DNA of 55,179 nucleotides from Clostridia bacterium. GTDB lineage: Bacteria; Bacillota; Clostridia; Oscillospirales; CAG-272. How positions within the stretch are numbered: position 1 is the stretch's first letter; the number at the start of each line of letters is the position of its first letter. The notes under the pieces are model-generated. The model ran no database searches and had not been told where the DNA came from. It saw only the letters and a list, made by a program, of their open reading frames with translations. The stretch spans positions 1-55,179 of the forward strand of contig JAFVOQ010000070.1 in assembly GCA_017505785.1 (NCBI GenBank), read 5' to 3'. Shown piece after piece: positions 11,709 through 13,994 of this stretch. A program made the translations under genes and the position numbers.

Positions 11709-13067
11709 ATGCTAAACGTAGCCGATATACTGGAAACGATCGGGATGATCCGAGAGGAAAATCTCGATATCAGAACCATAACCATGGGCATCTCGCTCCT
11801 TGACTGTGTCAGTGAGGATGCCAACCGCCTTTGTGACAAGGTGTACGATAAGATCACAAAAACCGCAGAAAAGCTGGTAGATACCGGCGTTTCGATCGAG
11901 CGTGAATACGGGATCCCGATCGTGAATAAGCGCGTATCGGTCACGCCTGTGTCGCTTATTGGCGGCGCGATCTCACCCGAAGGGTACTTAAAGCTCGCAC
12001 ATACCCTGCAACGTGCCGCGAAAACGCTGGGTATCAACTTTATTGGCGGATACTCTGCGCTGGTGCACAAGGGCATGACTGTGGGGGATAGAAATCTTAT
12101 TTCCGTGATCCCCGAGGCACTTGCCGAAACCGAGAACGTATGCTCCTCGGTGAACGTGGCAAGCACAAAGGCGGGTATTAACATGGATGCCATTCGCCTT
12201 ATGGGCAGCACGATCAAGCGTGCGGCGTACCTTACGCGCGACAACAACTCGATCGGCTGTGCCAAGCTGGTCGTTTTCGCAAACGTCCCCGAGGATAATC
12301 CCTTTATGGCAGGTGCATTCCACGGCGTGGGCGAGCCCGACAGCGTCATCAACGTGGGTGTTTCGGGCCCCGGCGTGGTGGCGGCGGCAATTCGCCGCGC
12401 AGGGGAGTGCGATCTTTCCAAGCTTGCCGACGTGATCAAGACCACTGCTTTCAAGATCACGCGCGTTGGCCAGCTTGTTGCAAGCGAGGCGGCAAAGCGC
12501 CTTGGCGCGCCCTTCGGCATCATCGATCTTTCCCTTGCCCCCACGCCCGCCATTGGCGACTCGGTTGCCCGTATCCTTGAGGAAATGGGTCTTGAGGTCT
12601 GCGGTGCGCACGGCACCACTGCGGCACTTGCGATGCTCAACGATGCCGTAAAGAAGGGCGGCGTTATGGCTTCCTCGCACGTCGGCGGACTTTCCGGCGC
12701 ATTCATTCCCGTTTCGGAGGATGAGGGCATGATCGCCGCGGTAAATGCCGGTGCGCTTTCCATTGAAAAGCTCGAGGCAATGACGGCTGTTTGCTCGGTC
12801 GGCCTTGACATGATCGCCGTGCCCGGCGATACCACCGAGGAGGTCATTTGCGGCATCATTGCCGACGAGATCTCTATTGGCGTGGCGAATACAAAGACCA
12901 CGGCGGTGCGCCTCATTCCTGCCTACGGCAAGACTGTTGGCGACAGCGTCAGCTTTGGCGGCCTTTTGGGCACTGCACCCATTATGCCCCTTCGCACCTA
13001 TTCTCCCGCTAAATTTATTTCGCGCGGCGGCAGAATCCCCGCGCCCATTCACAGCCTGAAAAATTAA
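11709..13067 (+). CDS. UPF0210 (DUF711/PFL-like) family protein
   Basis: A 452-residue protein matching the UPF0210 family over its full length, with [22 protein letters not shown] at the N-terminus, Gly-rich [22 protein letters not shown] and AHGTTAALA segments. The family is related in fold to pyruvate-formate-lyase-like proteins, but no reaction is established. AAGGAGAGTG precedes the start. It is the second gene of a two-gene operon with the ACT protein and ends before the repeat island. Confidence 0.93.
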
Positions 13068-13136
13068 AAGCAAAAGCGCACGCCGCGACAAGGGATGCTC
13101 TCTGTTAGCGTGTTATCCTTAACGGAGAACACGCAA

Positions 13137-13311
13137 TGAATTGCAACCCTACGGCTTGCGTGAATTGAAAGCTCTCGCTTTCGTGAATTGCCTGCGGCAT
13201 GAATTGCGCCTTACGGCGCGTTGGTTGCAATTCAATTCATGGAGCGAAGCGAGAAATCATGGCGAAGCCAATTCATGATGCCTCATTTGCGGAGCAAATA
13301 GCATCAATTCA
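13137..13311. repeat. Hairpin array delimited by four TGAATTG and four CAATTCA words
   Basis: TGAATTG occurs at 13137, 13161, 13184 and 13200; its complement CAATTCA occurs at 13228, 13233, 13269 and 13305. Most of the segments between the words are themselves short hairpins, for example AAAGCTCTCGCTTT, GCGCCTTACGGCGC, TGGCGAAGCCA and ATTTGCGGAGCAAAT. The whole therefore reads as an inverted array of mini-hairpins between two genes. No gene is seen. Confidence 0.8.
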
Positions 13312-13326
13312 TTCATAAAAACGATC

Positions 13327-13370
13327 AGAGCAAGAATAGAAGGATTTTTCTCCTTTTATTCTTGCTCTTT
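13327..13370 (+). terminator. Terminator of the ACT-UPF0210 operon
   Basis: AGAGCAAGAATA pairs with TATTCTTGCTCT; the inner stem AAGGA/TCCTT closes a small T loop, followed by TTTCTGCTT. It lies beyond the hairpin array, so the array would be transcribed with the operon. Confidence 0.75.
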
Positions 13371-13994
13371 CTGCTTGTAATAAGGGTTTGGGCTTAGCCC
13401 ATAGAGCATTTGACCGGTCAAATGCGATGCTCGCACTTTTGTCAAAGTGTAAATTCTCCGATAAGGATATCACCGGTTTGCGGTGTGCGTTTTTTTGCGC
13501 TGCCATATACCGCCAAGCGCAAAGCAAAAGCGCAGCAAGGCCGCAAAAAACAAGGCGTGGCAAGGCTTTGAGGGTCGTGCGCCGAAAAAACAGGGGAAAA
13601 CCGCAAAAAGGAAAAATATGGTTTTTTGTCGCAGTGGGAAGAAAAATGCCCGAAAAGGGAAAAATGAGAAGCGAGGTGGGAAGGAAAGTTCCCCAAAAAC
13701 GCAAAATTTCCAAAAACGGAAACAGCGCGGTTTTTCCACCAAGGCACAGGTCCAGCCTGTGGAAAACCCTGTGGAAACTGTGTAAAACTCCTTTTGTAGC
13801 AGGGAGTTCAGGATGTTTTTGCCTGTAAAATACCTGTGCAAAAGTGGGGGTGTCAAGCACAAAAAACAGGAATTTTGTCGTTGCAAAAAAGGAAAGGCTT
13901 TTCCAAAGTGCGAAAAGTTTTTTGGGGGCATCAAAACGCGGAGCTCACCGTTTTTTTGGGTACGGCTCTCGCGCGAAATTTTGTGCTTCGCCCC
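13371..13994. other. Long purine-rich intergenic region with 20 bp palindrome and DnaA-box-like cluster
   Basis: No gene is supported; the open frames here are Lys/Arg-rich and have no ribosome-binding sites. A perfect 20 bp palindrome, GCATTTGACCGGTCAAATGC, lies at 13406-13425. TGTGGAAAA (13758-13766), TGTGGAAAC (13770-13778), TGTGTAAAA (13779-13787) and an opposing TTTTTCCACC (13731-13740) are one to two bases from the DnaA box TGTGGATAA. The plus strand is rich in A and G over several hundred bases. This could be an origin-like or regulatory region, or simply drift. Confidence 0.45.

Follow-up and report, generated by a model that had tools for sequence, protein, structure and literature searches.

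Gut-1 RNA was described in 2010 as a likely noncoding RNA that was found only in the human gut and was unaffiliated with mRNAs (PMC2864571). The intervening sequence (IVS) of Coxiella has tandem heptamers just before the open reading frame for S23p and is excised by RNase III (PMC4990558). The IVP/S23 proteins (PF05635) are a four-helix family with a solved relative (2rld). Gut-1 and the IVP proteins are two long-standing orphans whose function is not known. Among open-access papers, which were the scope of our literature search, we found none that links them.

In the window analyzed here (the whole stretch of 55,179 nucleotides), an array of short words and hairpins belongs to a family of elements that physically ties Gut-1 to IVP genes. 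The element is real and widespread, and the family is large and apparently undescribed. Such features are common and unannotated in the genomes of gut Clostridia, and they now form a defined family. Our results also place IVP elements within RNase P RNA, next to tmRNA, downstream of tRNA genes, and at the 3' ends of genes.

The array in the window and its carrier

A sequence-only reading of the window had described four TGAATTG words followed by four CAATTCA words at 13137-13311, with small hairpins in most of the gaps, and we found all of these where it had placed them. Exact matches to TGAATTG start at 13137, 13161, 13184, and 13200, and exact matches to CAATTCA start at 13228, 13233, 13269, and 13305. 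TGAATTG is not enriched across the window (12 found versus 11 expected); the signal is the clustering, with 8 of the 12 matches lying within 175 bp. Two details needed correction. The words at 13228 and 13233 share two bases, so there is no hairpin between them, and a degenerate word (AAATCATGG) divides the segment 13240-13268 into two hairpins. The feature also exceeds the span first described: the array is the cassette of a MITE-like carrier of about 370 bp, which runs from a hairpin at 13108 to 13474 and lies within the loop of the terminator of the UPF0210 gene. The sequence-only reading had noted neither the carrier nor the terminator, nor the links to Gut-1 and IVP. The features of the locus are:

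11709-13067, + strand: UPF0210 gene (named by the sequence-only reading; from the list of open reading frames), with an orthologue in 19 other genomes of the genus; the element is in its 3' terminator
13076-13086, + strand: left arm of the host intrinsic terminator (GCGCACGCCGC), split by the element; from the sequence and from the short-looped terminators at L245 and L247, which have no element
13108-13134, + strand: left-end hairpin of the carrier (GCGTGTTATCC-TTAAC-GGAGAACACGC; inverted repeat I6), common to the left ends of sister carriers
13137-13220, + strand: left arm of the array, four TGAATTG words with a hairpin after each (CAACC/GGCTTG, AAAGC/GCTTTC, GCC/GGC, GCGCC/GGCGC); from the words and from homologous segments
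13137-13148, + strand: first word plus CAACC, which can pair with 13223-13234 (inverted repeat I4; covariation across arrays)
13223-13241, + strand: centre, GGTTG-CAATTCA-ATTCATG, in which the reverse word is doubled; the family search key
13228-13311, + strand: right arm, in which reverse words (linker ATTCA) alternate with the hairpins GGAGCGAAGCGAGA, TGGC/GCCA, and a nested ATGC..ATTTGC/GCAAAT..GCAT; from the words and from pairing within segments
13327-13368, + strand: long hairpin of the carrier body (AGAGCAAGAATAGAAGG / CCTTTTATTCTTGCTCT; inverted repeat I3), whose position is kept in sister carriers
13406-13425, + strand: palindrome of the carrier body (GCATTTGACC/GGTCAAATGC; inverted repeat I7), kept in sister carriers
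13451-13474, + strand: right end of the carrier (AAATTCTCCGATAAGGATATCACC), an imperfect inverted repeat of 13110-13129 (I2, 90% over 20 bp)
13480-13496, + strand: right arm of the host terminator (stem half 13480-13489) and T-tract (GCGGTGTGCGTTTTTTT); from the sequence and comparison with relatives

Folding with a secondary-structure program had been proposed as a check. As a single strand, the array did fold better than shuffled sequences, but only moderately so (z = -2.2), and no single fold was chosen among local hairpins (-44.7 kcal/mol), pairing between first word and centre (-57.7 kcal/mol), and a ladder (-51.5 to -60.0 kcal/mol); the MFE was -64.0 kcal/mol. The strong evidence for the predicted structure is comparative, rather than from single-sequence folding.

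The array had also been read as a possible RNA scaffold in the 3' UTR of the ACT-UPF0210 mRNA. It does lie downstream of that gene, in the loop of its terminator, but it is not a feature of the gene: two relatives (L245 and L247) have an ordinary short-loop terminator and no element after the same UPF0210 gene, and copies of the element lie behind many unrelated genes. At another locus (L253), a different carrier with a different word lies behind the same UPF0210 gene, and at C72, C6, and L041, it is other terminators that are occupied. We rejected the idea that the array is the intrinsic terminator of the UPF0210 gene, as the element sits within the terminator and is not the terminator itself.

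The carrier has terminal inverted repeats and multiple copies without a transposase gene, as MITEs do. No clear target-site duplication was seen at the flanks that we inspected. The pattern of the carrier's right end (AATTCTCCGNTAAG..TCAC) is present in 13 of 21 genomes of the genus (control, 0), and these genomes contain many carriers with the same body and differing cassettes. The words of the cassettes are TGAATT, GCGATAT, GTGAAGTT, GTTATGA, GTGATATT, GTGATGT, and TCGATAT (a GTGATGT cassette is also present in the window's own genome, at C52), and the reverse complement of the word is always in arm two. Between classes, every word of an element changes together. It is this covariation of words that hints most strongly at pairing between the two arms, or at one factor that might read both orientations.

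Three other loci (L277, L275, and L282) have the same carrier right end with other cargo. By eye, the cargo includes a Y1-like transposase gene with GTAG repeats (L277), a NUDIX-like open reading frame (L275), and other repeats. A Gut-1-like array (36.4 bits; L003:1951-2037, in G000:C6) lies about 200 bp downstream of the carrier at C6.

A family of two-armed arrays that includes Gut-1

The sequence-only reading had suggested a new type of modular intergenic element, and it had named a lack of other copies, and of conservation of the word-hairpin pattern, as what would speak against its finding. Other copies and conservation were both clearly found. In the window's own genome (1.7 Mb), a triple-word pattern has 13 matches while the reversed control pattern has 0, and there are five arrays (at C1, where the contig end cuts the array, C6, C28, C67, which is the window, and C72). 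The same pattern is present in 10 of the 21 genomes of the genus, including all six of the good ones (control, 0). To look further, we used the centre, TGAATTG..CAATTCAATTCATG (an overlapping doublet), as a search key across 84,980 species genomes. This gave at least 118 stretches, and among the matches listed, nearly all were from metagenome-assembled genomes (MAGs) of gut Clostridia/Oscillospiraceae. With many copies, variable modules, and insertion in a terminator, the suggestion of a modular element is supported. Matches to the key in a planctomycete contig (L137), a myxococcal contig (L140), and a Bacteroidales contig (L082) are chance, with no array there. A phage-borne element was rejected, with just 4 matches among 2.9 million viral contigs.

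We collected 178 distinct arrays from gut Clostridia, and their plan is constant. There are usually three to four direct words with a different hairpin after each, then a short segment, the doubled reverse word, and hairpins separated by reverse words. At least four nested pairs are present in 90% of the left-arm segments (n = 403; 19% if shuffled) and in 65% of the right-arm segments (13% if shuffled), and 51% of the right-arm segments have at least six pairs (1.4% if shuffled). There are 177 different left segments among the arrays, so the pairing is kept while the sequence changes. Furthermore, the five bases after the first word covary with the five bases before the centre: on average, 3.19 of the 5 can pair, with 57 distinct combinations, as compared to a mean of 1.74 and a maximum of 2.32 in 2000 permutations. 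This covariation implies that the 5' half of hairpin 1 could pair either with the 3' half of the same hairpin or with the centre, and we infer an arrangement that looks like a switch. Coding sequence and a simple tandem repeat were both rejected, as the hairpins covary and there is no conserved frame. There is a moderate bias in orientation: the upstream gene reads toward the left arm in 91 cases versus 43 (n = 134).

Among known Rfam families, only Gut-1 (RF01706) came near, and it was below threshold. The arm in the window scores 21.6 bits (E = 0.27), short of the gathering cut-off of 50 bits, and the best arm of the TGAATTG class (L012) scores 29.5 bits. Like Gut-1, the array in the window has short hairpins one after another, with a single constant linker between them. 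Searching with Gut-1 itself, we found matches in 41 of 59 related genomes and as many as 50 in a single genome. These loci, among them sister loci whose Gut-1 arms are complete, are likewise two-armed, with TGAAAT as the linker, and there is a TGATAT class as well. Rfam's Gut-1 is one arm of one word class (TGAAAT) of the array family.

Linkage to IVP genes and sites of insertion

A complete unit of the family consists of a host-flank hairpin, the left arm, the right arm, a promoter-like stretch, and an IVP gene (PF05635), in that order. At G000:C28, for example, the array is followed by an open reading frame of PF05635, the 23S rRNA intervening-sequence protein (E = 3e-26). Across the genus, an automatic detector identified a two-armed array at most 480 bp upstream of 16 of the 26 IVP genes that could be placed. 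The detector misses three TGAATTG arrays that are visible by eye, and with these added, the count is 19 of 26, so we give both counts. No two-armed array was found near any of the 16 Y1_Tnp loci in the genus. In a sample from across the order, an array directly precedes 7 of 29 IVP genes, versus 2 of 79 control windows and 0 of 870 shuffles. In one genus, arrays of the Gut-1 type in front of IVP genes represent about nine word classes, and Gut-1 scores above the cut-off directly upstream of the IVP genes at L342 and L366. The copy in the window has no IVP gene, and no IVP of the TGAATT class was found in several genomes that have TGAATTG arrays (these are incomplete MAGs).

The word also follows the tree of IVP proteins. 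On that tree, the word requires 12 changes (the minimum is 9), as compared to a mean of 28.9 if shuffled, and none of 200 shuffles was as low. Word and gene are within about 600 bp of each other, so their co-segregation follows from linkage; it shows that the unit travels together, and it does not prove binding. A clade of 22 IVPs, which is well supported, lacks arrays; its loci have short repeats instead, and these are often in inverted orientation on either side of the gene. A locus that seems intermediate (L305) has hairpin-bearing arms on both sides of the IVP gene.

IVP loci of the simple kind, with short inverted repeat arms, are present inside 23S rRNA (L194, L198, and L203) and beside tmRNA (L206 and L214). 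Another IVP locus (L200) is inside RNase P RNA, where the 367-position model spans 775 bases. At three loci (L162, L100, and L077), the left arm or its start is repeated after the IVP gene, which puts the unit between direct repeats of about 22 to 110 bp.

Of 31 units with both an array and an IVP gene, 14 lie behind an rlmD-like C-terminus and 10 behind a tRNA gene. At the rlmD sites, the gene is long and in frame to HVESVV, and the tail comes from the element. Just before the first word, 67% of the arrays have a perfect hairpin with arms of at least 8 bp (1.3% if shuffled), and there are 49 different arms. The left arm of this flank hairpin is often host sequence (the ends of the rlmD or rpsI coding sequences, or terminators), and where the host gene differs synonymously between species, the right arm differs with it. 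Thus, the right arm either arose as a copy of the flank during insertion or has been kept by selection or gene conversion. This flank-copying arm is the oddest feature of the family, and if it is true that the inverted copy arises at insertion, then the mechanism would be new.

At eight loci (L006, which is G000:C28, and L062, L068, L075, L098, L100, L121, and L147), the end of the rlmD coding sequence forms a perfect hairpin with the sequence just before the array, the right arm tracks the synonymous changes in the gene, and the element provides the last residues of the protein and the stop codon. Extra short rlmD-like C-termini (..PFGVLTHVESVVCL..) are present outside of full rlmD genes at L006, L106, L131, L349, L352, L359, and L367, as though part of the target travelled with the element. 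At L044, L045, L067, L070, L079, and L093, the array lies behind a gene that we read as rpsI, and an inverted copy of the last 16-25 bp of the gene follows its own terminator, directly before the array.

Possible mode of spread and comparison with known systems

The array in the window is probably non-autonomous and part of a family of structured selfish elements that is linked to IVP and whose members would work like the IVSs of 23S rRNA and sit at the 3' ends of genes. Mobility would explain the copy number, the empty sites, and the exchange of cassettes, from which we infer it. The element would be a selfish, transcribed, structured sequence, and its hairpins, together with long-range pairs between the first word and the centre, would fold the strand into a branched structure in which the direct word of one arm could pair with its complement in the other arm. 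The sequence-only reading had also proposed that the array may be a target for structure-recognizing enzymes. The likely partner to which the data point is the IVP four-helix protein from complete units, which might bind the folded strand and enable its spread, acting in cis and perhaps in trans. Because copies are preferentially behind genes (91 versus 43), the acting form is more likely RNA than single-stranded DNA. Spread would be to hairpin-bounded sites where insertion does little harm, such as terminator loops, the terminators of tRNA genes, and the 3' end of rlmD, much as the IVSs of 23S rRNA persist in the loops of rRNA helices. The small four-helix protein gene in some of the elements is a first clue to the function of the family, and the tie between array and IVP makes a direct test possible, of whether IVP binds the array and moves it.

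A further reading, which we offer tentatively, is that the IVP and the two-armed array would be the whole machinery of a new class of mobile element. The cognate IVP would recognize the branched fold, insertion would make an inverted copy of the host flank and so the perfect hairpin just before the first word (at rlmD, its right arm follows synonymous differences in the gene), word and complement would change together as classes diverge, and non-autonomous arrays (Gut-1 and the array in the window) would spread in trans.

Several observations weigh against an IVP-linked selfish element. Movement was not observed, the support is all comparative and from MAGs, the folding is moderately above shuffles, and the bias in orientation is moderate. 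The co-segregation of IVP and word is what linkage would give, and several (incomplete) genomes with TGAATTG arrays lack a detected IVP of that class. Also, the imperfect inverted repeats of the carrier would fit an ordinary MITE, with a transposase acting in trans to move the carrier into terminator loops, the array as filler or a passenger, and the IVP unrelated to movement. Such a MITE would account for the 20-bp imperfect inverted ends, the uniform body of the carrier, the seat in terminator loops, and the carriers with other contents (such as the Y1-like transposase gene at L277 and the NUDIX-like frame at L275, both read by eye). However, many arrays are outside of any carrier (at the rlmD, tRNA, and rpsI sites), no transposase was identified for the carrier ends, and the association of array and IVP would be left unexplained. 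We consider an ordinary MITE rather unlikely as an account of the array; it could hold for the last jump of the copy in the window, with the array still an independent element.

It is less probable still that the host keeps the array for its own benefit, as a structured noncoding RNA or 3'-UTR element that would, for example, protect mRNA 3' ends or serve as a scaffold for protein binding, and that the array is not selfish. The extensive covariation, the seat behind genes (91 of 134 upstream genes read toward the left arm), and the publication of Gut-1 as a likely noncoding RNA (PMC2864571) are what a functional RNA would predict, but the orthologous sites of congeners are empty, the neighboring genes are unrelated, a genome may have up to 50 copies, cassettes are exchanged within one carrier, and IVP genes are associated. 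Hairpins with a conserved foot, spread in both orientations by a Y1 (RAYT) transposase, would match the word-plus-hairpin units in direct and inverted order, which resemble BIMEs, and Y1_Tnp genes are present in 10 of the 21 genomes of the genus. But the absence of arrays from all 16 Y1_Tnp loci, versus their presence at 16-19 of 26 IVP loci, disfavors REP/RAYT, and the repeats around the RAYT at L277 start with GTAG, which is another sequence. We view this origin as very improbable.

Compared with described systems, the arrays share with REP/BIME elements a conserved foot on the hairpins, direct as well as inverted order, intergenic location, and many copies; they differ in that they are not associated with a Y1 transposase and their words vary by class. 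Pneumococcal BOX elements are modular. Like MITEs and the pneumococcal BOX and RUP elements, the arrays are small, multi-copy, modular, and intergenic, with inverted ends on the carrier, but they differ in having exchangeable cassettes, a linker word that changes everywhere at once, and a seat in terminator loops. The likeness to Gut-1 is in the short hairpins, which a constant linker connects (UGAAAU in Gut-1, TGAATT in the window), and in the complete Gut-1 loci, which are two-armed with a doubled central reverse word, whereas the Rfam model has no second arm, no pairing between first word and centre, no other words, no carrier, and no IVP gene.

Strictly, the copy in the window belongs neither to Gut-1 (it is below the cut-off) nor to the IVP elements (it has no IVP gene). 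Complete array units carry the same protein family as the IVSs of 23S rRNA (PF05635), and the elements are in hairpin loops; in the window, the insert splits a terminator hairpin and lies in its loop, which is empty in L245 and L247, and it is presumably transcribed. In contrast to those IVSs, the copy in the window lacks the IVP gene and is in the terminator of an mRNA, the arms of the arrays are decorated with hairpins and usually are both upstream of the IVP gene instead of flanking it, and the IVPs that are linked to arrays group apart from the array-less clade of 22. By analogy, the IVS of 23S rRNA may serve as the nearest working model.
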